From assembly GCA_030549335.1 (NCBI GenBank), contig JAUKPH010000022.1:3100001-3164000 (forward strand): a stretch of DNA of 64,000 bases. Direction: 5' to 3'. The first letter of the stretch is position 1. Every line of letters begins with the position of its first letter. The position numbers were made by a program, and so were the translations under genes. Source of the DNA: Pontederia crassipes. Its lineage: Eukaryota; Streptophyta; Magnoliopsida; Commelinales; Pontederiaceae. The notes under the pieces are model-generated. The model did not search any database, was not told the DNA's origin, and worked only from the letters and a program-made list of their open reading frames with translations. Below, piece after piece: positions 1,208 to 55,065 of this stretch.

Positions 1208-1475
1208 TCGGAACTCGGGCCGAGTTCATCGGACATCGTTCACAGACAGAGTTAAACCCAGGCCGAGTTCATGTTACACCCGGGTCGAGTCGGGTCGTCG
1301 TCGAGTCGGGGCGGCCGTCGTGCCTGACATCTTCGTCGTGTGTGGAACTCGGGCCAGGTCATCATCAAGCTGGGCCAGGTTCGTCCTATTGCAGAGCTCG
1401 GAGAGCACGAAAATGACATATCCGAACCGAGTTCACAAAACTCGGTCCGGGCACTTCCTAATCCAGGCCGGGTTC
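1208..1475. repeat. CG-rich palindrome cluster (ACTCGGsCCGAGT core), left LTR of A
   Basis: Repeated variants of AACTCGGGCCGAGTT and CCCAGGCCGAGTTC in otherwise AT-rich DNA. On the minus strand the cluster begins about 440 bp downstream of the TATA box at 1918-1913. The matching cluster in the right LTR is 6768-7085. Confidence 0.7.
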
Positions 1476-2116
1476 ATCTTGCAGAGAAAAATTGCGTCGC
1501 GCAATACATTTTTCGATCAACTTTTCGACGATAGCCGGCATCAATAATCATCATAATTCATAGTACTATAACTAAAGATCAATTAGAGCATGCTTCAAGT
1601 TTAAAATCAAGATTCTACGATGAATCTACCCTAGTTCCATACCTTGTGAAGTTTTCGTTGAAACCTCACATCCTTTCCCTTCTTCGTGTTCTTCCTCTTC
1701 CTTCTCTTCTTCTTCCTCTTCCTCTTTCTTTTTCTTTCAGTCGTTCCCCTCTATCCAGGCACGTCATCCACGTTCATCGGTGTCCAAATCCTCCGGCTAA
1801 TCTCTTGTTGGGCGGCAGCAGCCCGTCGTGGGAGAGGAGAAGAGACGCACCAAAATTAGGGCCGGCTCGTGGAGAAAAATAGAGGGGCCAATTTGTTAAA
1901 TTTGTCCTCATATTTATAGGAGAGGAATTTGAGAACAATTTGAAGTCCAAGATTTGATTTAATCCCCTCAGATTTTAAAAGTTTGTTTCTTATTTATCTT
2001 TTCCTCTATTTGGTTTTTATTTTCCTATTTGTTTTAATCATTTCCATCATCTTCTTTTCCTTTTTCTATTTCAAGTTTATCTCTCTTTTTTTTTAAGTTG
2101 GCCATCGGGAGTTACA

Positions 2117-5100
2117 TTATAAAACCCTTAAAATAAAATTCATCCTCGAATTTAAACATCGGATAAAAGCTTGCTAAAAAAAAAACTTCTTAAGTCATTT
2201 ACGTGGCAGTTCGTCTTACACTTAGAAAGACATTTGTTCATCATTCTTCCATCTTCATCATCTTAAGAACATAGTCCTTACATTATCATATGCATTAGGA
2301 CAATGAGTCTTTTATCATAATATACCTTAGGGCAAAGGTCCTTTCATCATATAACATTTTCTTTCATCCTTTCTTCATCATATGGTTCATCTTTTCATTT
2401 TTTTTGCATTTGCTATAATTGGGAAATAAAATCTACTTCAGTCAACACAATAATGTGTTGCCATCTAAATCATCCATATGACAATTAGAAAATTGCCTCT
2501 TATGAGGTTGTAAACTCTTCTTTACATAAGTCATGGCAATCCTCTTTTCATCTTGTATCTTCCTTAACCTAACATCCTAACTTTTGATCACAAGGGACCA
2601 ATAGCAAAATCAGCTTCAATCATCATGAGAAAACTTGAGGATGTCATGACATGACATCGTTTGGATGTATTTCAATTTTCGATCAAATGAGTGATATGGA
2701 TCAACACCTTCTTAGTGGGTGAAAAACTTGGTTGGATATACCTTTCATACAACTTTATCATTAGGTTTAAAAATCCATCTACATTAGTTTTTCTTGCATA
2801 AAATTTTTATCATGTCTAAGCTGTCTTCATCTTCTTTATATTAATTCAACTTTATTGGCATGTTCATTTTGTTTATGTGAGCTCTTTGGCATTTAGAAAT
2901 TTCTTTTCACCTACCTCATTCCTACATGTAGGTAAGCAGCATGGTATCCTATACAAGGTCTCGAAGGAAATCTTACAAATGACAGAATCCTCCTTGACAA
3001 TAAAATCATCATGAACAATGACATAGAATCGATAAGCATCGATTTGGTGGAAAATAAAACCTTATCTCATGATTAACTCCATAAAAGTGATCATTATAAT
3101 CATGAGCATACGACATGATCATCGTCGATCTTAAAACTAAATGTCATCAAGGTAGCATATGATATAGTTGATTATACAATCATGGGACATCATGAGAAAA
3201 TCAAGAAGATTGATTATTTGGCATCAAAAGATACATCATCATCATAGGATCATTCCTTCATTATAGGATAGTCATCATGTGGATCATTAAGATCAACAAT
3301 GGCATAACCTAGCATGGTGGGAGAAAATTATCATAAGGGTCATTAATAATCAAGTACATCGATTTACAAAATCGATGATCATTCACAAGGTGTCATTGAA
3401 CATAATCCATCATAATTAGCAGGCATCATCTTAATGGACACAATTGATTATAAATCATATAATCATTGTACATGATCATAAAGATCATTAGGATTAGCAT
3501 TGACATCATTAGATAGGATTGTCCTCCTAGGTAAGGTCATCTTTATATAAAATTTTAACGTCATGCATCATCTTTTCATAAGATTTATGATGCTCTACTT
3601 TTTCCACATTGACATACTGTGTACTTAGAACATACTTTTGTATCTTCATGTTTTATGTCATTGCTATTTGTTCATCCTTATATGTATGTGTACTTTCTAA
3701 ATGGATTGTAACCCAAGCTTATAATATTCATTTAATAATTTTTTCCTTAGAAGACATAATTCCACATGGATCGCAACCCAGGCTTATGGAATTCATCTAA
3801 CATTTCTTCTTGTAGAGCTTCATTGGTTGAGTCCTACATACGTAGTTCCTTCATCATGTCATATGCAGTCTCATGAAGCCTAGCGAACTTTATCACTTAT
3901 GTCTGAGTACATGTGTAACCGAGTTCATTTACTAAAATGATATTTCATGGAGAACTCAAAATCTTTCAAAAACTTCATGTCATCTTCATTGTCACATATT
4001 AGGGTGCTACTAAAAGGAAGCATACTTAAGGCTCTTTCGATTAATGAACACTTCAATCTTTTTCTACATAAATTTAGGCGTAATTTGAACATAATGTTCA
4101 TGAGGACCTAAAAGTTTGAGGGGTGTTCTTTAGTTTGGCATCACTCAATTTATAGTGATAATTCATTGTCAGGAAAATTATCTTCCTTACATCTTCTTCA
4201 GCAACTCGAAACTGCTGGTACTCACTAGATCGATCTTCAGAACACCTAAACTTAAATAGGTCATCTTTGCATGGTAACAGACACTTATGTCTTAATGGTT
4301 GTTTTATTTAACAACTTCTTAATAAAATCTCTAGATTCATAGAGTCATCATTCTTCTTTACAAAAGAAGTGAAACATCTAGAAATGAGACCCTCGGTCTC
4401 ATAAACCCCTTGTCTTAAAGTTACTAATTTTTTCTCTTCAATTAATGTGTCATGAGGCCTTTGGAATTAGAGTCATGCTTGAAAGGAGATCAATATGACA
4501 CTCAACTTCTAACTAAAACTTTTTGTTCACTTGAATACTGACATCTATCTTCTTCTTCTTGCATAATACTCATGTTAGGAGGAAAATCAATTCACTAGAA
4601 TCCCATCATAATCCTCCTTAGAATTTCTAACTGATGTGAAGAAAAGATCTTATCTTCCATCGTCATTTGTACTATTGGGACATACTTTCTGCTATGAAAT
4701 TATTTTCATAAGGTCATCATCTTTAAAGATAGCTTATGTCATACAAGAATCAATAGGCTCACTAAGAGTATTATTCATCATCATAGATAATGACATCATC
4801 AAATATTTTGATAAGATTGATAATGGAATAATATCAATCTTCATCTTCATAAGATCAATCTAGAACCTATGTTTGATGTGACCCTTTCCTAAATATCATC
4901 ATAAAAGAATACTTCTTTGATTGATAATCAGATCAATAATATAAAACGGGATCACATATGAGATCAAGAATAGGTATTTGATCAAATCATTGAATTAGTA
5001 CTTCATCATCTTAGCAGGATGGACAATACAAGTGTGATATGAAAAGATGTGAAGAGGTCATATGAGGTACGTCAATTGTCACATCCTGGGGTCTTTCTAT

Positions 5101-5333
5101 ATTCATAGAGTACTTCATCATTAATCATCATGAATTTTGATCATATAGGAAAGAATCCTAAGGATCAATAAGATCCTATATTAGCATTATCAAGTGTTAT
5201 AATAATCATTTATCTTCTGAGTGAATGACATAACTTACTTGGATTTACATTAGGTGGCTCGTGGCGCTTGCACATGGACCATGACATCATACATTAGGAC
5301 ATGAGAATGCCCTAACTTTAGGCTCTGAGTAAC
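2117..5333 (-). mobile_element. Decayed interior of element A
   Basis: AT-rich sequence between the two LTRs with no long open frame. A minus-strand stretch near 2880-2980 weakly resembles the integrase segment that reads [10 protein letters not shown] in Gypsy elements. The purine-rich stretch next to 2117 (minus strand) fits a polypurine tract before the 3' LTR. The rest is too decayed to assign. The short open frames here (for example 3609-3800 and 4636-4863) have no recognisable domain. Confidence 0.5.
5316..5332 (-). other. Primer-binding site of element A
   Basis: On the minus strand, directly after the LTR, the sequence reads TTACTCAGAGCCTAAAG. This resembles the plant initiator-Met tRNA complement TGGTATCAGAGC and fixes the element's orientation. 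Confidence 0.6.
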
Positions 5334-6199
5334 TGTAACGCTCCCAAATCGCACCTCATCACGTGGAAGAATACGTTTCGAAGACGCTACGGATCATCCT
5401 TACGTGTACATCATATTGACCAAAAGTAAAACTTTGACTAATCAACTCGACATCGATAAAAGCAGAAGACTTAATCATCATTAATTATAAAAGGGAGTAA
5501 CATCATAATATGCGGAAGACTGATAAATGACTTCATAGGAGTCCAAATGAGAGCTAATACATCAAGTAATAAAAAGGAAGGATTAGCTATCCATCATCTA
5601 AATGACTCGATAACCATGTGCAGCCACTTACAAGCTCGATCTTCACCGTTGGCCACTTTCATCATTCTGGCCTTGGCCTGCATTTAAGAACATGCAGGGG
5701 AGAACCTCCCTATGAGTTTTATAACTCAGTATCGAAGTAAGATAAACATCACAATAGATCATGATACTAGACGAGAATCATAAGAATATCATCATCATAT
5801 AAAAAGAAAATAGACATCATCATCATATGGGTAAAAGAAATCATATAACTTGGCATAGAGATAGGAAATTCATATATTTATCATCTTCATGAGATCATAA
5901 GATCAAAGATCAAGATAGATCATAGTAAATTATTTTAATGTGTCGAGCACCGATCATGAGGAATCATCGTATGAACATAGATAATCATGAAATGCATCAT
6001 CTTTATAGGATCATATTAATAACTGATCAAGAGATCATGAAAAGATCATCATAAGAATGGCAAAAGCCAACAATCATCATAAAGAGATTTTATTGTTAAT
6101 ATGCTTCATCTTCTTCGTCATCTTATTATTCATCTTTGACTTATAGTAGGGTATATTTCAACCCACGGGGAGGTCTGCCTCAACCCGTCCATCATCATC

Positions 6200-6317
6200 A
6201 TCATAACTGGCAAAGCCAGCCCATAACTAACTGTAGTCAGTCCATAACTGACCGAAGCCAGCCCATAACTGACCGGAGTCAGCCCATAACTGACCGAAGT
6301 CAGTCCATAACTGGTCG
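6200..6317. repeat. Tandem 21-bp palindromic array, right LTR of A
   Basis: Five to six units, each containing a CTGACCG.AGTCAG-type inverted repeat. It is cleaner than the left-LTR copy. The seven-residue periodic open frame on the minus strand here is only the translation of the array. Confidence 0.8.
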
Positions 6318-6767
6318 TCATCAATTCATCATAAAAAGAGCTCTCCATTTTACATTTTTCATCTTTTATCTTGCAGCTTTTAATTTATCTTCATTAGGAC
6401 ATAAGGATCATGCTTAAGAATTGGTCATCATAAGAAAGGATCAAGGAATCAGATTGATCAATGGTCCTAATCATCATCATCATCATCATTATATAAGACT
6501 TAATCAGTGCTACAAGAAATGATCATGGAGAGAAATTAGATATGCATAAACATCTTAATCATCATCATAAATAGATCAGTTTTGGATGGATATGAATCGG
6601 TGTCATCACTGATATGATTGGATCTAAATTAAGTCATCATAAGGTCATGAATCATGTTGGACATCATTATTAATGAATGCATAAATAACATAATCATCAT
6701 CATGACTTAGATCAGGATTAAGTACATAAATCAAGGTCAAAAGATAAAAAAATCATCTTAATAGTAT

Positions 6768-7085
6768 TGGAACTCGGGTCGAGTCAGGTAGAACCCAGGC
6801 CGAGTTCATCGGACATCATTCTCGGAAAAATAGAATTAAACCCGGGCTAAGTTCGGATTACACTCGGACCGGGTCGGGTCGTCGTCGAGTCGGGGCGGCC
6901 ATCGCGCCCGGCATGTTTGTCATGTGTGGAACTCGGGCCGGGTCATCATCAACCCGGGCCGAGTTTGTCCTATTGCAGAGCTCGGAGAGTGCGGTGATGG
7001 CAGATCCGAGCCGAGTTCACAGAACTCGGTCCGGGCACATCCTAATCCGAGGCGGGTACGGAGAAACCCAGGCCGGGTTCATCTT
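6768..7085. repeat. CG-rich palindrome cluster, right LTR of A
   Basis: Dense variants of ACTCGGGCCGAGT, CCCAGGCCGAGTTC and CCCGGGCCGAGTTTG, lying about 440-750 bp downstream of the minus-strand TATA at 7520. GC content is far above the surrounding DNA. It belongs to the same core class as the clusters in element C and in the solo LTR at 38857. Confidence 0.75.
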
Positions 7086-7711
7086 GCGGAGAAAGACTGC
7101 ATCGCGCAGTACATTTTTCGATCAACTTTTCGACGATGGCCGGCATCAATAATCATCATAATTCATAGTACTATAACTAAGGATCAATTAGAGCATGCTT
7201 CAAGTTTAAAATCAAGATTCTACAATGAATCTACTCTAGTTCCATACCTTGTGAAGTTTTCGTTGAAACCTCACATCCTTTCCCTTCTTCGTGTTCTTCC
7301 TCTTCCTCCTCCTCTTCTTCTTCCTCTTTCTTTTTCTTTCAGTCGTTCCCCTCTGTCCAGGCACGTCATCCACGTTCATCGGTGTCCAAATCCTCCGGCT
7401 AATCTTCTGTTGGGCGGCAGCAGCCCATCGTGGGAGAGGAGAAGAGACGCACCAAAATTAGGGCCGGCTCGTGGAGAAAAATAGAGGGGCTGATTTGTTT
7501 AATCTGTCCTCATATTTATAGGGGAGGAATTTGAGAACAATTGGGAGTCCAAGATTTGATTTAATCCCCTCAGATTTTAAAACTTTGTTTCCTATTTATC
7601 TTTTCCTCTATTTGGCTTTTATCTTCCTATTTGTTTTAATCATTTCCATCCTCTTCTTTTCCTTTTATTTCAAGTTTATCTCTATTTTTAAGTTGGCCGT
7701 CGGGCGTTACA

Positions 7712-11104: not shown

Positions 11105-13053
11105 TGTAACAACCAAGAAAAAAAAGGAAAACAAAGAAAAGAAAACCGTAACAGCCCACAGGATAAGAAACAAAAACAAATCCAAATCCAATTGAAATAG
11201 TGGCCAACTAGAGATAAAAGGATTTATCTTCTTAAGAGTTGAAGACCAAAACTAAAGGGGGATTAACTCTATTTGATTAATTAGATTTAAATGGGAGAGG
11301 AACCCTATAAGAGAGGAATAAATCATGCAATAACTCTCTTTTCCTCCCAAGACCTCAGGTAATCCCTTTTCTTTGGATTCTTGCTGGGACGCGGCCAACG
11401 TTCAGGAGGCGAAGAACAAGGGGAAGAACATGGAGGAAACATGGGGCGCTATTGATAGTTTTCCGATGAATCAAAGAAAGGATTAATCGCGAACAGAGGT
11501 GGGTGAATCGAAATCACCTTGCATGACCTCTGAATTGTTCTAATTCATGCCCTAATCGATATGGAAAGAAAGGAATAAGAACAAGGCTCAAGTTATTGTT
11601 TAATTTGGTTGATTTTCTTGATTTCACAAATTGGTTGAATTAATGTTTGATTTGTTCTATTATGTTGATTGCTTGATTGATTGCTAGGAGTTAGGAACCT
11701 TTTTAGATTGGAATTGCACTAGGATTTTAAGGAATTTTCGTGATTAGGAGTTTCTGTAGGACGCCTATCGGTCGACCGATTCTGGTGTGTTGTTGAATAC
11801 TGGTCGACCGATTTACTGATATCTCTGACGATTTGATTTGCACTCGATCCCTGCCTACCGGTCGACCGATCCCTGCCCACTGGTCAACCGGCCCCTGACA
11901 ACCGGTCGACCAATCAACTGAACGGATTGACCGACCTAATTAAAGCCGACTCAACCCACCGATCGACCGATCTCAACAGATCGGTCGACCGACCTGAAGC
12001 CAACCGGTCGACCGTTCTCCAGAACTGGTCGACCGATTTCCAAAAACTTTTTTATTAGATTTATAAATTATTTCCCTTTTAATCCGAATATTACCCATAT
12101 ATAGTTGATCCTATTGTTCTGACCCTACAGAGATCCCTCACTAATTTTCAAGATCTATTCTCTTATTGATTTATCCCCTATTGATCTTATCGTATACATT
12201 GAACAAAGAAAAAAGAGTCATAAGTATTAAAAGTGATTAAAGTTCAGATGAAAGATTAACAATGGGTTGCCAGTCCAAGCCAAGTGCAGCAAGATAAGGG
12301 TAGCTCCCTTGGTCATGGTTTGATCACCCACTGACCCGCACAAGGCTGTATCATTTGCTCGGCATACCCCAAGAATTAAAGGCATCTAAAGTCACCCTGA
12401 TTTTCTAATATTAAACCAAGATCAAGAAGCATGAATAAGTCAAGTCAAGTTATCGTCATGATTTACAAGCATGCCATGATTTTAAGTTACTATGCATCAT
12501 TGATTCTAATGAACTATGATATCCTCTTAATTATTTCTTATTAGGATCTATGATGCTGTCATGTTATCCTTTCAAGTTCAAGTCAAGTATGATTATTTAT
12601 CTCTGATTATTCCATTCATGTTATGCATTGTATATCATGTGGTTCCCCACTAGGCTATAAAGCTTACGGGAGGACCTCCTCCTCTGTGTCTGATTTCCAC
12701 AGGGCCAGGTCAGTGACGAGGTGAAGTAGGTGTGTGGTGATGAAGCTCTGGCGGCAAGAAAGCACATGAACCACAGGGCTTATTAGTTTTCTTTATTAAT
12801 TTTTTTGTCCTTCCGCATTTATAGATTCATGATGTAGAACCTTATTTTATTTCTTAGAGACGATGTAGCCACTTTTTAGACTTCCGCTAATTAAAGTTAT
12901 ACTTTTATTTATTCCATTATTTTATTATTCTTTCGCTGACATGTCTCGGTTCTTGATTGAGATATGGTCAATATTATAATCAAAGTCATAGCATGTCGTA
13001 GCGTCTTCATGTTGATCTTCGCCGTATGGCGGGGTCGATTTGGGGGCGTTACA
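11105..13053 (+). mobile_element. Solo LTR (TGTAAC...GTTACA) with 5-bp target duplication
   Basis: 1949 bp starting TGTAACAACCAAG and ending GGGGGCGTTACA, flanked by perfect 5-bp duplications GGTAT (11100-11104 and 13054-13058), inserted into B's gag. It has a TATA box at 11306 (TATAAGAGA) and a GGTCGACC cluster at 11765-12045. No interior coding sequence is present, so it is a solo LTR. Its ends and its segment after 12240 match the solo LTR at 38857-41138, so both belong to one family. Confidence 0.9.
11765..12045. repeat. GGTCGACC palindrome cluster in the solo LTR
   Basis: Seven exact copies of the self-complementary octamer GGTCGACC in about 285 bp, most extended to CGGTCGACCGAT, plus near-matches such as GGTCAACC. 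The cluster begins about 460 bp after the TATA box at 11306. The surrounding sequence is AT-rich. Confidence 0.9.
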
Positions 13054-14324
13054 GGTATAGTCTTCTGAAGGAGAATGAAATATTAAGGGCCAACCACTTT
13101 GTCAAGGGACTGAATCACATCAAGTGTGATGATCATAAAACTATGGCCAAGGCAATCTCCTTAGCATTCAAATTAGCTAGGTTGATTATTCAAAACAAAT
13201 ATGAACAAGACAAGGAGTCAAGGAAGGAATTCAAGAATGAACAAAGGCAAGAAAAGAGGGCTGAAGACTCTAAGCCCTACAAGAAAGGTGATGATGACAA
13301 GGGAAACAACGATGTCCACACTGTAAGAAATTTCATCTAGGCAAATATCGAGTGAAAGTTGGGGTCTGCATTCAGTGTGGTCAAGCAGGACACTTTATTA
13401 GATATTGTCCTGAAAAGCGAGATGATTATAAATACAAAGGCAAGACCAAATAAAATGATGGACAACAAAGAGCTATAGGTAGAGTCCATGTCAAGTTGCT
13501 GAGACTCAAAACATGAATAATGAAGAATAAGGTAATCCTATAAGTAATGTCTATTATGTTAATGCTATAAATGTTCATATGATTGCTCATGCACCAATAC
13601 TTTTTTGCATTGATAATGATTAAGTAAAAGATAATGAAAGAAATTGTATAAGTGCATAAGTAAGATTGAAATTTGAGGATGAATTTCTTTTAAAGGAGTA
13701 AGGATGTAACAAACCCCATTTTTAAATAAGGGTATTTAAGTCATTTGGACGAAACCCTAAATTAGACTCTATAAAAAGTCTCCAAACTCTCTTTCTTCTC
13801 TCTTTTCTTATTTCTCCCACGTGACGGCTGTAACCATAGAGAAGGAAAAAATAGAAGAACAAGAAGGAAGAGCACAAAGAGAAAGAGAACATAGACAAGG
13901 GAAAATGGATCAACATTGAGAAAGAACAAAACCATAGGTATGTAAAGGGGATCCAACCCCTCTCTCCTCTCTTAATAGTTTGCATGTAATGGTTTGAGGT
14001 TTGAGGGTACCTTGTCCTCATAATGGATTGTGATTGAGGATTGCATGAATGCATTGATTAGATTTAGATGTTTTAGATGATGATTTATTATTTTATTATG
14101 TTTTATGACCTAGATTTAGAATTTCATATGACTATTGGAAAAACTCTAAAAGATGTATTTCCATGATAAATTGATATTATTAGCTTGTTTTTATGTCTAT
14201 TATTTATGCCCTAGAAGTGTTCTAGATGATCTATATATTTTCTCCTTTATTCTACCTCAAAAATATGTATTTTTGGATTAGAAATCGGGACTCCAAGATG
14301 TCGGCACAGCCTTGCCAACCCTAT

Positions 14325-14640
14325 GAGCGGTCGTGACCGAGCAGACAAAATCATGTTAAAAGGCTTTTGGTCACGTCCATGTTTCTTCTATCATGGTCGT
14401 GACAGAGGCGTCACGACCGTTAATGAGAGTGACATGACACAGCCAAGCACGACCATGACACGTTTGGTCACGACCGTGAGCGAGAGCAAAAAGTTGAAAT
14501 TTGGCTAAGATTGGGAATGGCTGTGAAAAGGCTGAGCATGGGCATGACAACTTCGAAAATGACCGTACAAGGGTAGGCACGGTCGTGGCTGGGCTGGGCA
14601 CGATTGTGATAATGTTGGGCACAACCATGACATTTTTTGT
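14325..14640. repeat. GGTCrygACC palindrome cluster in B's 3' LTR
   Basis: Repeated CGGTCGTGACCG, GGTCACGACCGTGA, GCGTCACGACCGT and CACGGTCGTGG variants, many of them near-palindromes, about 555-870 bp after the TATA box at 13770. The core differs from both GGTCGACC and ACTCGGCCCGAGT. The region lies outside the homology with the partial 5' LTR, so its counterpart there cannot be compared. Confidence 0.75.
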
Positions 14641-15729
14641 CACAACTATGACGTTGGAAAATGCCTTGTATAATATATTGAATATATTTTCTAATGTGTA
14701 TAGGTTATATGGATGTGTATTATTTGTATATGACATGTAATACATGCTCAGCCATAATTAGGCTAAAAGATGAAAGATTGATGTGAATATTTGATGTATT
14801 GATGACTAATGAAGTATGAAATAGAAGAAAATGCCTCGGCACACATTATGTTAAAGAAGTAAATGTCATTCACCTTATGGTGATTAAGACTTCTCAGGTA
14901 ATAATGTCTGAAAGAGTGTTTGAGATTTCATATGGGCCATTGGCCTAGTTATGATATTGTCTTACGCCTTCAATTAAGTAAATATGAAAGAAGGGGTAAG
15001 AAGTAAATATCTTTCACCTCACGATGATTGAGACTTCTGTATGAAATAATGTCACCACCCAAAAGATGTTTGAGATTTTTCAGAAGTAAATTCCTTTCAC
15101 TTTATGGTGACTGAGACTTTTGGAGAAATAGTGCCATCACTCGAAAAATGTTTGGGATTTCTCAATGCCCTATTTACTAAGATAATGATGTAATCTTGTA
15201 CCGACTATTATGCAAAGATGAAGTATGTTATATGATGAACATAATGAAAGTAAGCAATGAATGTAAAGATGAGAAGTTAATGTCTTTCACCTAATGGCGA
15301 TTGAGATTTCTTGAGAAATAATTCCATCACCTAAGAGGTGTTTGGGATTTCTCAATGTAAAGATGAAAGGTATTACAGGATAAGGTAAGAAGATAAGTGA
15401 AGTTTAATTTCAAAATATTTTATAAAGTTAAGATGATGATGAAATAAAGTTCTGCACTTATGTATATACTTTAAAGGGACCTAAGCCCAAGAAGTTAAGT
15501 CCTGCATTTGTGTATGTTCTTTTCAAGAAACAATGTTCCTCATCATAAAGTGTATTTTTAAAAATGATTAGGAATAAAGTCTCTCACTATTATGATGTGT
15601 GTTATTAAGATATGACTTATGACATGGAATGAAAGTAAAGATGATCTTATGTGATGAAAATGATATTACAAGTATCACATAATAAAGAAAGAAAGCCGAA
15701 TGAAAAACTATTCAAAAGGTTATAAAGCA

Positions 15730-17720
15730 AACAACAACAACAACAACAACAAAGTCTTATCCCACTAGGTGGGGTCGGCTACATACGACGCCATTCCGCT
15801 CTATTAGTAACCAAACCTTTCGATATATTATTCACCAATAGATCTTGCTCTATTAGTTCGCCAAGTGTCCGCCTTGGCCTCCCTCTCCCTCTTTTAATCG
15901 GACTCCAGATTATTTGATCTACTCTTCTTACTGGCGCATCTAATGGTCTTCTCTGAACATGACCAAACCATCTCAAACGATTCTCTACCATTTTCTCACT
16001 AATAGGAGCCACTCCGACTCGTTCGCATATATAGTCATTCATAATCTTATCTAATCTTGTATGACCACACATCCATCTCAACATCCTCATTTCGGCTACC
16101 CCCACTTTACGTTCATGTTGTCCCTTCATAGCCCAACATTCACTACCATATAACACTGCCGATCTTATAACAGTACGATAGAATTTTCCTTTAACTTTAT
16201 TGGGTACTTTTCTATTACAAAGAACTCTAGTGGCTTTCCTCCACTTACACCAACCAGCTTGAATTCTATGATTAACATCGTCATTATCTCACCATCTTGT
16301 TTTACAATTGATCCTAAATATTTAAACTTTGTCACTTGAGGAATTATATCCTCCCCTAGCCTAACTTACAAATCATCTCTAAGTTGTTTATTTGTGAAAT
16401 TGCTATGCATATATTTTGTTTTATTCCTACTTAAACGAAAACCCTTTGACTCCAACGTATTTCTCCATATTTCCAATTTTGTATTAATCTCTTCTCTTGA
16501 TACTCTCCGCAAATAGCATGCACTTAGGTACCTCCTCTGTGATACTCTCGGTTATAGCATCGATAACTAAGTTAAATAGATACGGGCTTAAAGCTGATCC
16601 TTGATGTAGGCCAATTCCTATAGGAAATTCATTTGTCTCACCTCCGGGTGTTCTAACCCTAGTCAATGCCCCATCGTACATATCTTGTATTACCTTAATG
16701 TAGGCAACACTCACCCTCTTCTTTTGCAAGACTTTCCAAAGTACATTCCTTGGTACCCGATCATACGCCTTCTCTAAGTCAATGAAAGCCATATGTAAGT
16801 CTCTTCTCCTACTTCGATACTTCTCCATCATCCTCCTTAGTAAATAAATCGCCTCTGTAGTGGATCTTCCTAGCATGAACCCAAATTGTCTCTCAGAAAT
16901 ACTAGTCTCCATTCTCAATCTATGCTCAATTACTTTTTCCCATAATTTCATTGTGTGACTCATAAGTTTAATTCCTCTATAATTTGCACAATTCTGAATA
17001 TCCTCTTTATTTTTGTAAATAGGAACTAATGTACTTAATCTCCAATCATCAGGCATCTTTTTCGATCGTAAAATCTCATTAAATAGTTTACATAATCACA
17101 ACACACATTTTTCTCCTAAATATTTCCAAACTTCAATCGGTATACCATCCGGTCCAACGGCTTTACCATTCTTCATTTTCTTAAGAGCTTCGATAACCTC
17201 CGAGACTCTAATTCTACGATAAAATGACATATTAAGCTCACATTCGCTAACTGTCAAGTCCTCCAAATCACAATGGGAACCTTCACATCCATCATTAAAT
17301 AGCTTATAGAAATACTCTTCCCATCTGTTCTTAATATCTCCTTCAGTAACTAAAATCTTGCCAACTTCATTTTTTATGCATCTTACTTGATCCAAATCTC
17401 TCGACTCCTTCTCTTTATTCTTTGCAATCTTGTAAATCCTTTGTTCACCAGTCTTTGTCCCTAACTCCTTATAAAACCCCTCATATGCTTTAGCACGAGC
17501 ATCACTAACTGCCTTCTTAGCCTCCCTTTTTGTCAAACGATACTTTTCCCAATTGTCAGAACTATTGCCCAAGTGTATCGCCTTGAAACAATTCTTCTTA
17601 TTACGCACCTTTTCTTGGACCTCCTCATTCCACCACCAAGTCTTCTTATCTCGTGGTCCAAAACTTTTTTGATTCTCCTAAAATGGCTTTAGCAACCATT
17701 TCAACCTTTTTTGCAAATGG
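15730..17720 (-). mobile_element. RTE-type LINE, 5'-truncated, copy 1
   Basis: Minus-strand non-LTR retrotransposon. The 3' tail is (TTG)n, read as CAACAACAA at 15730-15752 on the plus strand. Reading 5' to 3' on the minus strand: a linker with WWWNEEV near 17620, the segment KNGKAVGPDGIPIEVWK (about 17130), YKNKEDIQNCANYRGIKLMS, DLEKAYDRVPR (about 16760), GLHQGSALSPYLFNL, and the C-terminal LRWFGHVQRRP domain. The endonuclease domain is absent (truncation), and the FADD catalytic turn near 16510 is lost through a small deletion with a frame change, so the copy is dead. It sits in B's 3' LTR. No clear target duplication was found. Confidence 0.85.
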
Positions 17721-18367
17721 TAGAGAAAATGTAAGTAAGGAAGCCTAAGAAAATGTAAGTAAAGTATGAAAGCTGCTAAGATACAAGTAAGGAATAAGGA
17801 GTTATATAAAAACTCCTAGGATACACATGACTATGAAAAATAAAATGAATATGTTATGTCATATATGTTATGAATGATATGAATGCATATTCCTATGCTA
17901 TGAAATTTGCAAATGATGACTTATGATGTAAGGTCATATAAGGATTATGATATAGTTCATGGCATACAAGTTATTATTATTATTATTATTGTTGTTGTTG
18001 TTGTTGTTGTTGCATGTAGTATGATGTGTAGGATATCATGACATGCATGACCTTTACATACTCTAATTGGAAAATCGTGCACTTTGCATCCATGCAAATA
18101 ATCATGATTAAGTGATGGATGGCAGCTCAAGCTCATGATAAAGTATTGCACATACTTAGAATTTAATAACTCTATGATTCTAGATGAACAATAAGACTAA
18201 TATGTAATGAGTGTTTTAAGCATTTAATGTCCTATGAAATAATAATTGCTATATAATGAATAGAAAGTTTTTGTTTATGATGATTTTTGCTAAAATGTTG
18301 AAGTCTTCCACTATTGATTGAATTTCCAAATGTCCAAAACTTTTAGGGTGAATTTTGGATCATTACA

Positions 18368-18471: not shown

Positions 18472-20888
18472 TGTAACGCCTCACACTCAGAAAAAAAAGG
18501 GGGTGGGGGGGGGGAGAAGATGAGGAACAACCGAACCTTTCCTCTTCCTCTTCTCCAACTTCTCCCTTTCCTTTCCCCTCTTCAATGGCAGAACACGTTC
18601 AGAAATGGGGAGGGGAAGAGTCAACTACATCACTATAAAACTCCTTTCCCCCACCCTTTCTCACATTTTCCTATCGTCTCTCTCTCTCTCCTGCTCTTTG
18701 TTCTCCATCCGACAACTTGCACACAAGCAGCAGAGGCAGACAAAGGCACTCCGGCAACGATTTTCAGTGCGGACGACAAAGAGCAGCGGCCAGCAACTTG
18801 AGCACGAATCACCACACGGATGAACCACCGAATCGTAGGTTAAGAGGTGTGATTTCGGGATCTATTTCATAGATTATGTCTCTGGACGAATCATGCATGG
18901 TTATGGCCGAACCAGTAATAGGAATCATGACTCGAAATAGGAGACATAGTTGATAACTCTGAAATGCTTGATCTTTCATTTCTGTGAACTATTCGAAACT
19001 ATTTACGTAGATGTCGAACTCGCCTAGATCAATTGCATGTGTAGACTTGCTTTCTTATAATATAGATTATCATATAATACTTTAGTTATGCTCACAAACC
19101 CATAAAATTGATGCATGGTTGCTTTGATTGTTGAAAAGAATGAGATGATCGAAAATCGTAAACTTGCGTAGTTTTCTGCGAATAAAGAACCCGGCCTGGG
19201 TTGCCCATAACTCGGATCGGATCAAGCCAACTCGGATCGAGTTCTTCCCAGCTTGGCCCGGATCCGCCATTGATGCTTGACTCGAGCTTGGATCTCACTA
19301 GTGACCCGACCCGGGTTTTGGCTGACCCGACCTGGGTACCAATCGGAGAAGACGATCGGGTGGATCGACTTTTCCGACCCGATCGCGCACTCAACTTGGC
19401 CCGGGTGTAATCCCAACTCGGCCCAAGTTTTGACTCGGATTTTTCGAGACTGATTCCATCAGAAGCTCGGCCCGGTTTCACCTGTACTCGGCCCGAGTTC
19501 TAACCAACAGAACGTAAACTCTATGATCTACGAACCCGTATTTACCGAATTGATATCTGATCTTTTTAGAAAGTTAATTGTGCTCAACAGAACCATATTT
19601 ACCTCTTATTGAGTTGAATGGAGAGAATGAAATACCAAACTTGATTATGATATTATTGAAATGATAAATGTCTGTCCGCTCCCTCGATGGACGACCACTG
19701 AAAAGGACTATGACGGACGACCGTTTGGCTCCCAGGCATCCGGTACGCGGACAGAGGAATTCGATCTTAATCAAACCCTCTGATTTTAAGTTTCTGTCCA
19801 CTTGATTTGTTAAAGAAAGGAAAGAGCTCAAAGATGATTCGGAGCTTTGCTCCATATGGCCTTGACCAATCTACAGATTAGAAGATGGGTCCACATGATT
19901 CGGAGCTATGCTCCCTACCACCTTGATTGATCTATGGATTGAAAGAAAGGTCCATCTTGATGAGGGAAGTTAGACGAGCCCTAAGCAAGGCACTTTCTCA
20001 CGGATTACCATTTGTCCTATCTAGATGGGAGTTCTCTCATTTATGGATGTTTCCTCTTGGCACGAGATCATCCCAGCTCGACGGGACTGGCCGTGGAACT
20101 GATCACCCATTGGCCCATGATAGTTTAGATAGTAGCACTACGAGTGCAGGCAATGGTATTTCCCTAAAAGAATGAAGAGCTCTTCCAATGGAATGAAATG
20201 GAATGGAATGGAAATGAAATAAAAGAAAGGAAATGAAATGAAAGGAAAGGAAAAGAAAAGAAAAGAAACAATGGAAACAGAGACATGAACCATATTATGC
20301 TCTCTACCATATGACTCACTTTTACATCCCATTTTATTATGCTTATTCTGACAAAACTGATTTATGATTTATACGAACTCACACTTAGCTTTATGCTAAC
20401 GATTGAGCTTGTTCCTCTGTGTGATCCCCACAGGTACATGATGGTTGCTCATGACGTGATGGTGTGTGCGCGGCGATCTCGCTCTAGGTGGCACATGCAT
20501 ATGGTTATGGTCATGTCTAGTATGGGTCGTGTGTTTATCCGTTATATTAAGTGATATATCTACTTGGATGGATCTTATCATGTTATTGTCGACCGTCGTC
20601 GTTTTTATGTTTGGTACTCATACTTTCATCCTTACTGCTTCAGACATGAGACTATGGGATGTTATCTTTTGCTTCCGCACTACGTTCCTTATTGAGATAG
20701 TTTGACGTATTTTAACCCTTTTTGCTTCCGCATTCTTTTATATTGCCGTATTATTTTATTTGACAAGTCTTCCGCTTACGTGTCACTTTCCTTGACCATT
20801 TGTGTAAACAAAAGAGTCAAAACACAGACAAGAATAGGGTCACGAGAGGAGATCGCGCCACGTAGCAGATTGAATTTCGGGGTGTACA
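18472..20888 (+). repeat. Element C 5' LTR
   Basis: 2417 bp, TGTAACGCC...GTGTACA. The TATA box TATAAAA at 18634 follows a CT-rich stretch. Palindrome cluster at 19190-19500. Near the 3' end it carries the AAGTCTTCCGCTTACG box shared with other LTRs here. Short open frames inside (for example 19092-19481 and 19927-20175) have no recognisable domain and lie in non-coding LTR sequence. Confidence 0.85.
19190..19500. repeat. ACTCGGsCCGAGT palindrome cluster in C's 5' LTR
   Basis: Variants such as CCCGGCCTGGGTT, ACTCGGATCGAGTT and ACTCGGCCCGAGTT, about 560-870 bp after the TATA box. The 3' LTR keeps only a short part of it (about 31207-31257), so the cluster is size-variable between LTRs of one element. 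Confidence 0.75.
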
Positions 20889-26372: not shown

Positions 26373-26545
26373 AGGCACTACCTATACGGTGAAGAGTTTC
26401 AGGTGTTTACCGACCACAAGAGCCTGAAATACCTCTTCACCCAGAAGGATCTCAACATGCGGCAAAGACGATGGATGGAGTTCCTCAAGGACTACGAGTT
26501 CGTGATCAACTATCATCCCGGTAAGCGAACTCGGTAGCCGACGCT
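26373..26545 (+). mobile_element. RNase H, second part, of element C
   Basis: Resumes exactly after the D1 target duplication with [19 protein letters not shown] and then [14 protein letters not shown], the C-terminal half of a Gypsy RNase H domain. The sequence that follows (26546-26850) is poorly preserved. Confidence 0.8.
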
Positions 26546-30680: not shown

Positions 30681-32623
30681 CTTTCTCACATTTTCCTATC
30701 GTCTCTCTCTCCTGCTCTCTGTTCTCCTTCTAACAACTCGCACACAAGCAGCAGAGGCAGACAGAGGTACTCCGGCAATGATTTCCGGTGCGGACGACGA
30801 TGAGCAGTGGCCAACAATTTGAGCACAAATCACCGCACAGACGAACCACCGAATCATAGGCTAAGAGGTGTGATTTTGAGATCTATTTCATAGGTTATGT
30901 CTCTGGACGAATCATGCATGGTTATGGCCGAACCAGTAATAGAAATCATGACTCGAAATAGGAGACATAGTTGATAACTTTGAAATGCTTGATCTTTCAT
31001 TTCTGTGAACTATTCGAAACTATTTACATAGATGTCGAACTCGCCTAGATCAATTGCATGTGTAGACTTGCTTTCTTATAATTTCGATTATCATATAATA
31101 CTTTAGTTATGCTCACAAACCCATAAAATTGATGCATGGTTGCTTTGATTGTTGAAAAGAATGGGACGATCGAAAATCGTAAACTTGCGCAGTTTTCTGC
31201 GAATAAAGAACCCGGCCCGGGTTGCCCATAACCCGGCTCGGATCAAGCCAACTCTGAACGTAAACTCTATGATTTACAAACCCCTATTTACGGAATTGAT
31301 ATCTGATCTTTATAGAAAGTTAATTGTGCTCAACAAAACCATGTTTACCTCTTATTGAGTTGAATGGAGAGAATGAAATGCCAAACTTGATTATGATATT
31401 ATTGAAATGATAAATGCCAAACTTGAATGAAATGTCATGTTTACCATGCTCCCTCGATGGACGACCGCTGAAAAGGGACTATGACGGACAATCGTTTGAC
31501 TCCCAGGCGTCCGGTACGCAGACAGAGGAATTCGACCTTAATCAAACCCTCTGATTTTAAGTTTCTGTCCACTTGATTTGTTAAAGAGAGGAAAGAGCTC
31601 AAAGATGATTCGGAGCTTTGCTCTATATGGCCTTGACCAATCTACAGATTGGAAGATGGGTCCACATGATCGGAGCTATACTCCCTATGACCTTGATTGA
31701 TCTATGGATTGAAAGAAATGTCCATCTTGATGAGGGAAGTTAGACAAGCCCTAAACAAGGCACTTCCTCACGGATTATCATTTGTCCTATCTAGATGGAA
31801 GTTCTCTCCTTTATGGATGTTTCCTCTTGGCACGAGGTCATCCCAGCTCAACGGGGCTGGTCGTGGCACTGATCATCCACTGGCCCACGACAGTCTAGAT
31901 AGTAGCACTACGCGTGCAGGCAATGGTATTTCCCTAAAAGAATGAAGAGCTCTTCCAATGGAATGGAAATGAAATAAAAGAAAGGAAATGAAATGAAATG
32001 AAAGGAAAAGAAAAGAAACAATGAAAAGAGAGACATGAACCGTATTATGCTCTCTACCATATGACTCACTTTTACATCCTATTTTATTATGCTTATTCTG
32101 ACAGAACTGATTTATGATTTATACGAACTCATACTTAGCTTTATGCTAACGATTGAGCTTGCTCCCCTGTGTGATCCCCACAGTTACATGATGGTTGCTC
32201 ATGACATGGTGGTGTGTGCGCGGCGATCTCGCTCTAGGTGGCACGTGCATATGGTTACGATCATGTCTAGTATGGGTCGTGTGTTTATCCGTTATATTAA
32301 GTGGTATATCTACTTGGATGGATCTTATTGTGTTATGGTCGACCATCGTCGTTTTTATGTTTAGTACTCATACTTTTATCCTTACTGCTTCAGACATGAG
32401 ACTATGGGATGCTTCAGACATGAGACTATGGTTGACGTATTTTAACCCTTTTTGCTTCCGCATTCTTTTATATTGCCGTATTATTTTATTTGACAAGTCT
32501 TTCGCTTACGTGTCACTTTTCTTGACCATTTGGGTCAACAAAAGAGTCAAAACACAAGCAAGAATAGGGTAGCACACGAGAGGAGATCGCGCCACGTGGC
32601 GAGTTGAATTTCGGGGCGCTACA

Positions 32624-38856: not shown

Positions 38857-41138
38857 TGTAACAACCAAGAAAAAATAAAATAAAATAAACATGAAATGAT
38901 CACAGGGTGTTTGAATGCCATGATCTATAGTGGGAGGTGTGAATATCGACAGTAATTAAGGGAGAATAAAATGGGATTATGAATAATAGAAATTAATAAG
39001 GGAATCAAGTCCCAAATCTGTTCATTTACTCCCTAAAACACTACCAAATCAACCTCTCACTAGCGGCCAAAACAAAATCCAGAACAAATCTGAAAACATA
39101 CAACCTCCTAAAATTGCTGAGCACACGTCCATTTCCTCAGCAACTCTGTGTGATCAGTTTCTCAACATTCTATATAAGGATTTAATGATCTCTCTCTTTT
39201 CTCTCCATTTACAAACCCTCTTGGTTTCAATCAAGCTTCTCACATGCACTGGAATCTCCACGCTTGCAGGCGGTGACCAATCAAAGGAGGAAGGGGCACA
39301 GAGAGGACACGGAGGACGCGGTCATTAGAGGTCTCAACGAATCAAGGCAAGGAAATGTTCAAACTCAGCTGGGTGAATTCATAAATCTCCTTGTATAACT
39401 CTTTTTAGAGTAGATCCAAATAGATCTATTGATTTAACATCCGGATATATGATACATGATGCAAATCATTCTATATGATGAAGGTCAAGACATGTATTGT
39501 AATCCGTTTGCTTGCCTTTAGAAACCTTTGATTGTTTGTCTATTAGATTCCTATTAACGCCATGCCTTGTTTATCCATTAAGTTATACCTTGCTATGTTT
39601 ACATTGAAATGTCTACCTTAGTTCCATTAAATGTCTGCAATTAGAATATGATTGATTGTTGTGTATTGGTTGTCGCACTTTTGATATGTACATACCATGT
39701 AGAATAGCATTTACCTTGATATAAATCATAGAATAGACTCTTGACATTCTGAAGAACATTAGATTCCGGTCCAAATTACTATGAACCTGCCCCCGGTTCA
39801 TATTGAAATCAATTGTGTGAATCGATTTCACGATTGTGCTCATGGAACTCGGCCCGGGTTAGCGAACGATGGATCGGTCAACCTCTCGACATTTTGCTAC
39901 CTGACCTGGGTTCCACTGAACTCGGCTCGATTTTTGCCCCATGTCGACATCGTGTGACACATTCTACTAATCCGGTCCGAGTACATTACATACTTGGCCC
40001 CAGGTCTCTACAACTCGGCCCGGGTTTCCCTATACCCGGCCTGGGTTATGTCAGTCCAAAACTACGTTTTATTTCTCTTTGATTTTTATTTGAATATGAA
40101 ACCTTCTAACTCTAACCAAGTACTATTATGTTACCATCTAATTTCAAACGTCTTATTCTACCATATTTATGACCAGAACCTGTATGATACATCATATGAT
40201 TATTCCTACAATCGAATCATCTAGTTCTTAGTGATATTGAACATTGAAACGTAAAGTGAATATAGTGGCTAATAAGATAAGATGGAAGATCATCACTGGG
40301 TTGTTAGTCTATGCCAAGTGCTTTGTGATAAGTCTCCCTTGATCATGATTTGATCAACCATTGACCCACACACGGCTTATCATTTCGCTCGGCATTACCC
40401 ATAAGTAAATAAGAACCCATCCTATGACAAGTAAAGGATGATGAAACTAAAGGCACCTAAAGTTACCTAATTTCTAAGTATAATATAAGATAAAGAAGTA
40501 TGGTTAAGTAAAGAAACATGAATACCGAATCAAGTCACCGTTATAATCTATTATCATGATTATCAAGCATGCTATTGATTCCAAGACTATCATGTATTAC
40601 TTGATTGTATTGATTATTGATATCTATTGATTTCCCCTTACTTATGATCTATGATAATTACATGCCTAGATTCCTAATCAAGGTAAGTACCGATTCTTGT
40701 TTTTTATTTACTCTAATTAGAGTTATGCATTGTATATTATTATTAGTTATCTACTAGACTGTAAAGCTTATGGGATAATTGTCTCCCCTATGTTTGATTT
40801 TTACAAGACTAGGTCAGTGACAGTGTTGAATTGGTGTGCTGTGACGATGCTCAGACGACGATAAAGCACATGAACCAAATCTGTTTCCTTTTCTTCCGCA
40901 TTTATGAACCTCTGATGTAGGCTTTACGATACTTTTATTTAGAGATAATATAGTCACTCTTGGACTTTCGCAATTAATGTTATCTTCTATATTTCTTCAT
41001 TTATTCTATTCTTTCTATTGTCGACGTATCTTAATTCTTAATCGAGTCTTGGTCAATATTATGATCAATACCATAGCGTTTGTAGCTTCTTTAGATTGAT
41101 CTTCATCACGTGGTGTTGGTCGATTTCGGAGCATTACA
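38857..41138 (+). mobile_element. Solo LTR, same family as 11105-13053
   Basis: 2282 bp, TGTAACAACCAAG...GGAGCATTACA, flanked by CTTTA and ATTTA (one mismatch in five). TATA box TATATAAGG at 39171; palindrome cluster 39841-40035. After the cluster it shares with the other solo LTR the segment around GTCTATGCCAAGTGC, TTGATCATGATTTGATCA and the CTTATGGGA...GACTAGGTCAGTGAC block. No coding interior is present. Confidence 0.85.
39841..40035. repeat. ACTCGGCCCGGGT-type palindrome cluster in the solo LTR
   Basis: Copies of ACTCGGCCCGGGTT, CTGACCTGGGTT, ATCCGGTCCGAGTAC and CCCGGCCTGGGTT, about 670-870 bp after the TATA box. It occupies the place where the related solo LTR at 11105 carries GGTCGACC units. 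Confidence 0.75.
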
Positions 41139-42342: not shown

Positions 42343-42360
42343 TATATTAAACAAACCATA

Positions 42361-43099: not shown

Positions 43100-43117
43100 T
43101 ATATTAAACAAACCATA

Positions 43118-45102: not shown

Positions 45103-45114
45103 ATGACGAACTGA
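45103..45114 (+). promoter_or_regulatory. Minimal upstream ORF (ATG ACG AAC TGA) before the kinase start
   Basis: A three-codon ORF whose stop ends three bases before the kinase ATG at 45118. Any transcript containing the annotated start almost certainly includes it. Ribosomes would have to skip this ATG, whose context CGCCCATGA is moderate, or re-initiate almost at once, so it could lower translation. Whether it does is not known. Confidence 0.5.
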
Positions 45115-45117
45115 GAA

Positions 45118-49529: not shown

Positions 49530-50036
49530 AACAAAATCCATTCATGACATGACCTCCGAAGCCTTTCCTTCAAGATGCAATAATATAGGTGCTGATGCAG
49601 TTGGAGACAATATTTCTTAGATGAAGAGGTAAATCATTTTTTTTCCTTATTACCCCTTTTCTTTTTTTAAACCATTTCTATTATTTTTTTCGACGGCAGC
49701 ATTTATATAGGACTAGAGAGGAACCTTCTATTTCCTTGTACATTTGTTTGTTCTTTTCATCCTTTTGTTTCCTGTATCAAAAACAGGATTCTCGTTTAGC
49801 TTCTGAAGTCACAATAAGTGTCAACTGATCCCCTCATCCATTTGTATTTTTGTAACTTCAATGCGTTCCTACCATTTCTCCTTTTGTTTGTCGCCCGAGA
49901 TTTGTCTTTACTTTTAGTTCAATCAACGAAAAGCTTTTACGCGTAAATGATAAGTCTGATTCAACTGTTCCGCTAAAAGTTTGCTAGCATTTTGGAATTT
50001 AATTTAGACACAACATTTGTTTCTGCAATTTGCTCA
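49530..50036. other. 3' untranslated and downstream flank of the kinase gene
   Basis: T-rich sequence with several AATAAT/AATAAG-like signals (for example near 49585 and 49812), but no single convincing polyadenylation site. A second frame stays open through the end of the last exon to 49620, which could mean an altered C-terminus in this allele or species. Confidence 0.45.
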
Positions 50037-53344: not shown

Positions 53345-53929
53345 TGTAATGCCCCCAAAATCGCCCCTCTTGTTACGTAGGCAGTCAGATTGATCCCGGG
53401 AGCGCTACACTGTCTATTGCACTATTGACCATGACCACTCAACAAAATAGCATACGTGGCACTAATATAATAAGAAAATATAATAAAGGACTTTAATGCG
53501 GAAGTTCAATAGTTAGAATATCAAAGACATAGTTCACCCACGCATGTGATAACAAGATGATAAGAGATTATAAATCTCAATAAGTTCAATAAAGCAAAAG
53601 AAGTCTGATAAGCGGAAAACATGATGTCTATGGATAACAATGACAAATCATAACGCTGAATTCGATTGAGGCAATTTATCAGTCATGTGCAGCATCCTCC
53701 AAGCTTTGTGCTCTCCAACATCTCATCAGTTAGCGTTCTCACCTGCAAAATCCCATTGCAGGGTAATCAAATATCCATGAGCAAGAAGCCCAGTACAATA
53801 GCCAATAGACGTGAAATAAGGATCAATGATAAATCTTGAAATCAATGTATAAATCTAAGACAATATCAATGTCTATGCTTTATTCTTTACTATAACTATT
53901 CTTTGTCTTTATTCTGCATAATCTTTACT

Positions 53930-54085
53930 ATACCATGTTCCATACTTTACTGTACTTTACTTTACAGTACTCTGCTTTACGTTGCTTTACATTTCAGTAC
54001 TCTGCTTTGCATTGCTTTACTTTACAATACTCTTCTTTACATTAATTTACATCTCATTGCTTTACTGTGAGTTGCACTATGTCTT
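53930..54085. repeat. CTTTAC-type degenerate tandem repeat in E's 3' LTR
   Basis: Repeating blocks of TACTTTACTTTACAGTACT and CTGCTTTACGTTG. The 5' LTR has the corresponding block at 63130-63270. Confidence 0.7.
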
Positions 54086-54689
54086 TTACATTACTAAGAT
54101 ATTCTTAAAGTTAGTTGTCCTATGCGAGCTCGGTTTTATTAGGTTGGGATGCTAGGAGTGCCTCTCTGAATCTCTGAATGCCTTTAAGTCCATAAAGGAA
54201 AAAAGGGGTGGGTGTTAATACCTCACCCAATTCGGAAGGTAGGTGAAAGAATTCCTACAATTCAAGAACAATGGTCAATTAAGAAATCCGTAGGTTCACT
54301 GTCTCCTCAGCTAGCTACTTATTCCTCTGGCACAATACAATAATCTCTGGGGGAAGGAGTGTGACCATTGCATCACCCTTCATTCGAGATGCAGGTGGGA
54401 GAAGACCTAAAATCTCAAGAATAGTGGTTATTGAAGACAGTAGCTTCGCTGTCCCCTCAGCTAACTACCTATCCCTCTTCTGCTTTAACTCTGATCTTTG
54501 CTTTAACTTTGGGGCGGCACATAGCAATCTCATATATTTGTCTTTACATTATTTATCTTTGATTATCATGACATCTACGATTCAGAACTCAACTGGGAGT
54601 TAATCTCTGTACGATAGGACTCAACCAATATAGGTGAATTGGTTAGAGTTTCAGATTCAGATTTAAAATCATCATTTGATTCACTGTCG

Positions 54690-55065
54690 GAATCGGTCGA
54701 CCGCTACTGAACCGGTCGACCATTCCTATAGTTCGGTCGATCGGTCCTCTGGGATCGGTCGGCCGTGTTCTTGGTCGAGTGTCCGTAGGTCGGTCGACCA
54801 TACACATAAGGCCGGTCGACCGCTACTCTATGATCAGTTGACCGTCCGGGTGGCCGGTCGACCGGTTGTATAGCCGTGTGGACGCGCACTACGCGTCGGA
54901 TCGGTCGACTGATTGGAAGTCCGGTCGACCGATTTCATAAGAAGATCTGTCCGTTGACAGATAGATCGGTAGATCTTCATGGTGAGGTCGGTCGACCGAT
55001 TAATCTAAACTCGTAAGGGTTCTGTGAGTGGACCGGTCGATCGCTGATAAAATCGGTCGACCGGT
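54690..55065. repeat. GGTCGACC palindrome cluster in E's 3' LTR
   Basis: Eight exact GGTCGACC octamers in about 375 bp plus variants (GGTCGATC, GGTCGGCC, GGTCGACT), about 460-830 bp downstream of the minus-strand TATA at 55520. Same core as the solo LTR at 11105, although the LTR ends and surroundings differ. Confidence 0.9.

Follow-up and report, generated by a model that had tools for sequence, protein, structure and literature searches.

Six long terminal repeats (LTRs) of retrotransposons in a 64,000-nt stretch of the Pontederia crassipes genome (C22:3100001-3164000, hereafter the window) were found to carry arrays of short, dyad-symmetric units, which begin 443-677 bp downstream of a TATA box and whose neighbouring units tend to lie 20-23 bp apart, whatever the core or the length of the unit. 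This spacing tendency is a newly found regularity. Considering the evidence of the sequence, we regard a phased array of protein-binding sites at the DNA level, with a putative reader, as the best reading of these arrays, and hold it with moderate confidence. The whole window was read and its internal repeats were mapped, and relatives of the six LTRs, labelled F1-F6, were sought in the genome of 1.13 Gb in 43 contigs; the LTR ends were placed by eye and are approximate for F3-F6.

Arrays downstream of the TATA box

A preliminary description of the window had reported palindrome clusters at a similar distance from the TATA box in six LTRs, and both the coordinates and the strands of these clusters were confirmed. 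The first 420 bp of each LTR contain exactly one [CT]TATA[AT][AG], located 63-312 bp from the LTR start, and the first unit follows downstream on the same strand at a distance of 443 bp in F1, 464 bp in F2, 623 bp in F3, 556 bp in F4, 677 bp in F5 and 458 bp in F6. Units matching the family patterns are confined to LTR positions 573-1190 in all six window LTRs. TATAAA or TATATAA was present in 28 of the 31 aligned F1 rows (reference counted), and a TATA box lay 440-640 bp upstream of the first unit in 23 of 30 F2 copies, where letter shuffles expect 6.8, while no TATA excess was seen in the F2 copies 28-108 bp downstream of the last unit (7/30 vs. 6.1 expected). The arrays probably sit downstream of the core promoter; their earlier assignment to the transcribed leader holds as a position downstream of the TATA box in the window LTRs and F2 copies, and as R/U5 on condition that this TATA box is used.

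Three types of core were distinguished, CGGTCGACCG in F2 and F6, ACYCGGCCCGRGT in F1, F4 and F5, and CACGACCGTG in F3, which supports the suggestion that cores are family specific. The third core had been described as GGTCrygACC, which overlaps CACGACCGTG, the better notation. The rule of one core per LTR holds for the most part; in F1, however, GGTCGACC-type units occur as well in at least seven of the 30 copies (L043, L044, L054, L057, L058, L060 and L062, by eye). The cores, said to be self-complementary, are dyad-symmetric in every family; perfect 8-bp palindromes exceeded the shuffled sequences only in F2 (7 vs. 1.05) and F6 (10 vs. 2.25), where GGTCGACC is recurrent. The window clusters of F1, F3, F4 and F5 showed no excess of perfect 8-bp palindromes over shuffles, because the centre of these cores is asymmetric at one or two bases and mutations have altered many of the units. 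Perfect palindromes had failed as a measure in four of the six families and gave way to dyad patterns whose centre is free. Counted in this way, the mean number of units per copy was far above that of dinucleotide-shuffled LTRs in all six families (F1 7.8 vs. 0.10, F2 5.6 vs. 0.04, F3 4.2 vs. 0.03, F4 8.4 vs. 0.10, F5 4.8 vs. 0.04, F6 9.2 vs. 0.07), although this comparison gauges strength and not discovery, since the patterns were derived from the families in which they were tested. The arrays are real and non-random. The clusters have a GC content of 0.49-0.59 (F3 just below 0.5) and an observed/expected CpG ratio of 0.99-1.60, giving them CpG-island character as judged on GC and CpG ratio alone. 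Units are uniformly oriented relative to transcription, the centre base of the 503 units of F1, F4 and F5 being C in 405, A in 54, T in 40 and G in four.

The genome was probed with the DNA between the TATA box and the array, the array itself being left out of the query. The F1 and F2 loci were excised by an automatic procedure and the F3-F6 matches retrieved as short stretches, which gave 30 analysed copies from 41 match rows for F1, 30 from 40 for F2, 16 from 41 for F3, 20 from 41 for F4, 18 from 41 for F5 and its relatives, and 20 from 42 for F6. In each search the best 40 of 71 to 2,387 first-look candidates were scored, so these numbers make no claim on all copies. The set comprised 138 segments, 131 from elsewhere and seven from the window (four window segments were added, and the array-depleted F4 3' LTR was excluded). 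In all 138 the unit count was more than three times the segment's own shuffled mean; the lowest counts per segment were one (F3, and F5 with relatives), two (F2), four (F4), five (F6) and six (F1). Absence from most family members, which had been named as evidence against the arrays, was not observed among the copies analysed; the F4 3' LTR of the window, with most of its array lost, is a case on the other side. Among twelve stretches with CGGTCGACCG pairs taken from the start of contig C1, six were F6-like and four F2-like LTRs. Of the remaining two, L143 matches no known LTR and is unclassified, and L146, a locus retrieved by the core alone, matches known LTRs in the array only and shows by eye the same TATA/array arrangement in another LTR.

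Adjacent units were 20-23 bp apart in 44-63% of the steps in the six families, compared with 7-12% when as many units were placed randomly in the same span. With one F5 and two F3 copies set aside for having fewer than three units, 133 of 135 copies exceeded this null (F1 30/30, F2 29/30, F3 14/15, F4 21/21, F5 18/18, F6 21/21). Genome-wide, exact CGGTCGACCG core pairs with a gap of 2-32 bp numbered 6,587, in comparison with three for the reversed pattern, and CYCGGCCCGRG pairs numbered 1,481 on the two strands (750 + 731), compared with 0 + 1. A centre-to-centre distance of 20-23 bp was found in 44 of the 50 CGGTCGACCG pairs listed (uniform expectation 6.5) and in 92 of the 100 CYCGGCCCGRG pairs listed (expectation 12.9), both lists following contig order from its beginning, a non-random choice that includes related copies. 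The centre distance is near-constant for 10-bp and 13-bp units, so the spacing is not a fixed gap. Spacers within an array were barely more similar to each other than shuffled letters in F1 (0.33 vs. 0.28), F4 (0.41 vs. 0.35) and F5 (0.37 vs. 0.36); these spacers are almost unrelated, and it follows that their length was retained without their sequence.

In the F2 alignment, transversions amounted to 0.025 in motif columns, 0.068-0.069 in spacers and 0.037-0.039 in flanks, and in F1 to 0.020-0.032, 0.081-0.117 and 0.052-0.096, respectively, that is, motif columns had 2.7-4 times fewer transversions than spacers, with a mild bias because these columns were picked by their match in the window copy. 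The identity of CpG columns was likewise highest in motifs (0.808 in F2 and 0.736 in F1), followed by flanks (0.750 and 0.656) and spacers (0.621 and 0.588).

Related LTRs can differ in their cores. The F2 and F5 LTRs are sisters downstream of the array, to judge from their alignment at 65% over about 0.8 kb, yet they carry different cores, and the 3' ends of the F1, F2 and F5 LTRs align. The sole alignment between the F1 and F4 LTRs is a 0.36-kb stretch coinciding with the array (65%, E 5e-30), the other match, of 38 bp, lying inside the array. Their unit offsets correspond closely (0, 21, 90, 112, 159, 180 in F1 and 0, 21, 90, 112, 161, 182 in F4).

Candidate readings of the arrays

According to the reading we prefer, the clusters would act in cis as regulatory arrays, their dyad-symmetric units being DNA-binding sites placed 0.4-0.7 kb past the TATA box of the LTR promoter, and a homodimeric, sequence-specific protein would bind each palindrome. 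Neighbouring sites 20-23 bp apart, about two turns of B-DNA, would place the dimers on one face of the helix and enable them to cooperate. Binding would most likely raise LTR transcription or shield the CG-rich stretch from silencing, and the core, differing by lineage, would be replaceable while position and spacing are retained. A protein-binding array had been offered earlier as an alternative to an RNA signal, and it is this alternative that is favoured by the distance of 20-23 bp across core lengths, the few motif transversions and the lack of a sense-strand preference in folding.

Several observations weigh against protein-binding sites. The array belongs to the less conserved stretches of the LTR in both the F2 and F1 alignments. 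Non-CpG transitions are more frequent in motifs (0.129 in F2, 0.130 in F1) than in spacers (0.094, 0.119) and flanks (0.062, 0.082), the F1 pattern itself permitting Y and R, and the identity of non-CpG motif columns (0.762, 0.764) is below that of flanks (0.831, 0.790). A dimer site of free orientation does not need the fixed orientation of the units, which fits an RNA role and also simple descent by direct duplication. Spacers of one array are alike in F2 (0.46 vs. 0.34 in shuffled letters), F6 (0.40 vs. 0.31) and F3 (0.50 vs. 0.29), so unit duplication probably contributed there, and part of the regularity in these three families may come from a duplicated 21-22 bp unit. A 10.5-bp period was not clear at distances beyond 20-23 bp, so helical phasing rests on one distance. 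The choice of the listed core pairs and of the motif columns, described above, points in the same direction.

The other function offered in the preliminary description was an RNA-level signal, in which leader palindromes with a family-specific core would pair between or within genomic RNAs in dimerisation, packaging or hairpins. Little supports this, and we consider it quite improbable; the DNA-level array is favoured because of the spacing rule, the low motif transversions and the pairing tests, which were negative apart from F2. The position downstream of the TATA box and the orientation of the motif relative to transcription suit an RNA signal, and folding of the arrays surpassed that of dinucleotide shuffles (sense z, averaged by family, -2.7 to -8.1; first 16 copies per family), but the antisense strand folded as well, the sense strand having the advantage in just 37 of the 96 copies. 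Among 5,112 paired positions, G:U was not above A:C (471 vs. 449), so the excess of sense C-to-T over G-to-A changes expected under pairing selection did not appear. No covariation was detected between arms at positions 3 and 11 (odds ratios 1.16, 0.86 and 0.86), for which reason arm covariation was dropped as proof of structure; one control, the F4 left arm against the right arm of the next unit, itself deviated from independence (odds ratio 0.39, p 0.0095). Compensatory changes showed no excess in F1 (32 vs. 35.5, with 419 of 500 shuffles reaching the observed value), while F2 showed a slight excess both in double changes (38 vs. 28.5, reached in 8/500 shuffles) and in standard pairs (reached in 3/500). 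A hairpin loop would, moreover, fix the gap, whereas it is the centre-to-centre distance that stays similar despite the unit length. The pairing tests were based on old copies and had limited power, and the leader start is given by the TATA box only, so their outcome is to be taken as weakening the RNA reading.

The palindromes of maize Sirevirus LTRs have reportedly been proposed, in a 2016 Genome Research paper, as templates of hairpins and small RNAs. Similarly, the arrays here could be hot spots of host silencing, persisting as the by-product, or the cost, of some other role in cis, a view agreeing with the strong variability of the array region and with best 110-nt windows below -40 kcal/mol in 52 of 72 folded copies (first 12 per family; cut-off from a passage of PMC10760457). 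We think this unlikely, as it leaves the 20-23 bp spacing and the low motif transversion unexplained. The same low transversion relative to spacers and flanks speaks against a minisatellite residue, that is, the decayed product, without present function, of duplications of a 21-22 bp unit in an ancestral LTR, and so do the almost unrelated spacers of F1, F4 and F5 and the similar spacing with three cores. The similarity of spacers in F2, F6 and F3, the unit repeats that can be seen by eye in individual copies (L013, L020 and L124, for example), and motif transitions that are not reduced accord with such a residue, to which we nevertheless give little credence. Finally, the array could lie within a leader intron as an intronic element flanked by donor-like and acceptor-like sites. 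The sites of F1 and F2 are suggestive. Between the LTR start and the array of F1, the LTR terminus aside, no GT[AG] but CACAAG/GTATGG (28/30) is conserved in 90% or more of the copies; in F2, ACAGAG/GTGGGT is kept in 27 of 29 copies, a second GT follows 4 bp later in 26 of 28, and downstream TTTCCACAG followed by G is kept in 24 of 26. However, four YAG sites of F2 are kept equally well, the acceptor candidate among them, the only kept one of F1 is weak, and candidate donors are not singled out in F3, F4 and F6; we consider an intron highly improbable. A preference of nested insertions for palindromes, as described in part of PMC6911290, does not account for the arrays.

Elements of the window

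The features of the six LTRs are collected in the table. The F4 3' LTR lacks about 260 bp of the array that the 5' LTR of this element retains, the loss apparently having occurred between short direct repeats (by eye); the F6 5' LTR is cut at the edge of its array, and the copy of the F3 5' LTR starts past the array. Pieces of the F4 and F6 elements, to which the domain search was confined and on which the Ty3/gypsy assignment rests, matched the Pfam domains RVP_2 (8.8e-35 and 2.1e-38), Ty3_capsid (2.7e-08), RT_RNaseH_2 (3.9e-24) and SH3_Tf2-1 (3.1e-24), one of the six pieces having no match.

Table. LTRs, TATA boxes and arrays in the window (window positions)
Feature	Position	Strand	Remarks
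F1 LTR	5334..7711	-	full length, TGTAACG...CGTTACA; sequence reading
F1 second LTR copy	1-2117		truncated by window start; internal repeat mapping
F1 second-copy array	1208..1475	-	homologous to F1 array; also recovered as L036
F1 TATA box	7515..7521	-	LTR position 190
F1 array	6772..7078	-	9 units of ACYCGGNCCGRGT (<=2 mismatches)
F2 LTR	11105..13053	+	apparently solo, inside gag-like stretch; apparent 5-bp target duplication GGTAT; by eye
F2 TATA box	11305..11311	+	
F2 array	11769..12035	+	8 units of CGGTCGACCG (<=1 mismatch)
F3 LTR	13705..18367	+	3' end approximate; LINE-like insert ~15735-17720; by eye
F3 TATA box	13769..13775	+	
F3 array	14325..14640	+	6 CACGRYCGTG units at 14392-14608, plus GGTCGTGACC at 14329
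F4 5' LTR	18472..20888	+	TATA at 18633
F4 array	19189..19498	+	9 units of ACYCGGNCCGRGT
F4 3' LTR (larger piece)	30681..32616	+	only first array units left; deletion near 31257
F5 LTR	38857..41138	+	apparently solo; TATA at 39170
F5 array	39847..40046	+	5 units of ACYCGGNCCGRGT
F6 3' LTR	53346..55636	-	TATA at 55515-55521
F6 array	54694..55063	-	12 units of CGGTCGACCG (<=1 mismatch)

Small hairpins were noticed by eye in the 3' parts of LTRs, CTGTG...CACAG in F2 (12680-12705) and F4 (20415-20435) and CCTGCAT...ATGCAGG in F1 (5665-5695). The terminal AG of the F2 hairpin is kept in 24 of 26 copies. Such a hairpin may be a splice acceptor, a poly(A)-region signal or another RNA signal. The stretches 23920-26380, 27520-30680 and 63875-64000 belong to a family of noncoding insertions that starts with GATAGT and, in the two copies that are complete, ends with GTGATCA; one copy stands at the array edge of the F6 5' LTR and another within the F4 3' LTR. 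Rich in GATAACTTG motifs and with apparent 5-bp target duplications (AGGCA, CTTTC), it resembles, by eye, a non-autonomous DNA transposon with subterminal repeats. A LINE-like element is represented by three copies of one of its ends, 92-97% alike and adjoining CAA repeats (15724-16470, 42353-43100 and 51560-52287). Between the F6 5' LTR and gag, a short open reading frame on the minus strand (62169-62411) has a single CCHC zinc knuckle, CCSLCDQDGHYEDEC, and possibly encodes an extra small protein. An intron-containing gene on the plus strand (44990-49530), which looks like one for a protein kinase of the cyclin-dependent-kinase type, has repeat-rich stretches on both sides (by eye).

Comparison with known motif arrays

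Retroviral leaders use self-complementary palindromes for dimerisation or packaging. The arrays resemble these in having self-complementary cores in a probable leader, and differ in that each window LTR has 5-12 spaced units and selection for pairing is little in evidence. LTR models in the part of PMC3601003 bearing on them were of no help with the arrays, and the tandem repeats of Retand were rejected as a counterpart, being located between pol and the 3' LTR according to a passage of PMC11963269. In maize, as reported in the relevant part of PMC10760457, structure peaks in Copia LTRs are linked to small RNAs, and none is obvious in Ty3.

Targets of the VANC anti-silencing proteins of Arabidopsis VANDAL transposons are family-specific motif arrays of the same orientation that evolve by tandem repeats (passages of PMC5735166). 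The arrays described here share with them dense, short, one-orientation motifs in noncoding DNA and a motif that differs between related transposable elements, and the orientation of the units of F1, F4 and F5 (405 C and 4 G at the centre of 503) is of this kind. The VANC protein is, in contrast, encoded by the transposable element, and its 9-base motif YAGTATTAY is not palindromic.

The closest likeness in motif kind is found in Sireviruses, whose Ty1/copia LTRs, as the relevant passages of Bousios et al. (2010, PMC2829016) state, contain repeated motifs that are palindromic, bear a CGG-CCG signature and lie in CpG islands some 37 bp ahead of a TATA box; these motifs were absent from classic Ty1/copia elements and were called Sirevirus specific on comparison with other Ty1/copia. 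In both cases the units are palindromic, CG-rich and many per LTR, with a core varying between elements, and the core of F2 and F6 is identical in every letter to the repeated motif of the Vitis Sirevirus, CGGTCGACCG, given there. The CGG-CCG signature is present in F1, F2, F4, F5 and F6, and F3 (CACGACCGTG) is without it. Relative to the Sirevirus threshold of at least eight units per element, the window LTRs have 12 (F6), nine (F1 and F4), eight (F2), six (F3) and five (F5). The Sirevirus motifs lie upstream of the TATA box in Ty1/copia elements, whereas the arrays here start 0.44-0.68 kb downstream of it in elements that, from the domains of F4 and F6, are Ty3/gypsy. The passages of PMC2829016 bearing on spacing give no rule for the distance between units, and we found no printed report of such arrays in Ty3/gypsy LTRs in the open-access literature, as judged mostly from listings.

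Because the kind of motif is shared with Sireviruses and the evolutionary behaviour with VANC targets, while position and (in F4 and F6) element class differ, the arrays would represent a TATA-downstream variant of Sirevirus-type motif arrays, Ty3/gypsy in the two families with domain evidence. Since the same CGGTCGACCG core is used by Ty3/gypsy elements here and by a Ty1/copia Sirevirus of grape, it is conceivable, if somewhat doubtful, that one conserved plant factor reads phased palindrome pairs 20-23 bp apart, that unrelated retrotransposon superfamilies converged on this factor, and that core swaps form an interchangeable code for LTR activation or anti-silencing, by which lineages escape or compete. 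The spacing rule provides a sharp and cheap test of reading by a dimeric protein. If the protein-binding reading is true, the arrays allow tests of how the promoters of these retrotransposons remain active or become recognised in plants. Palindrome arrays, described so far as Sirevirus specific among the Ty1/copia elements compared, are now seen in several LTR families at a shared promoter-relative position.

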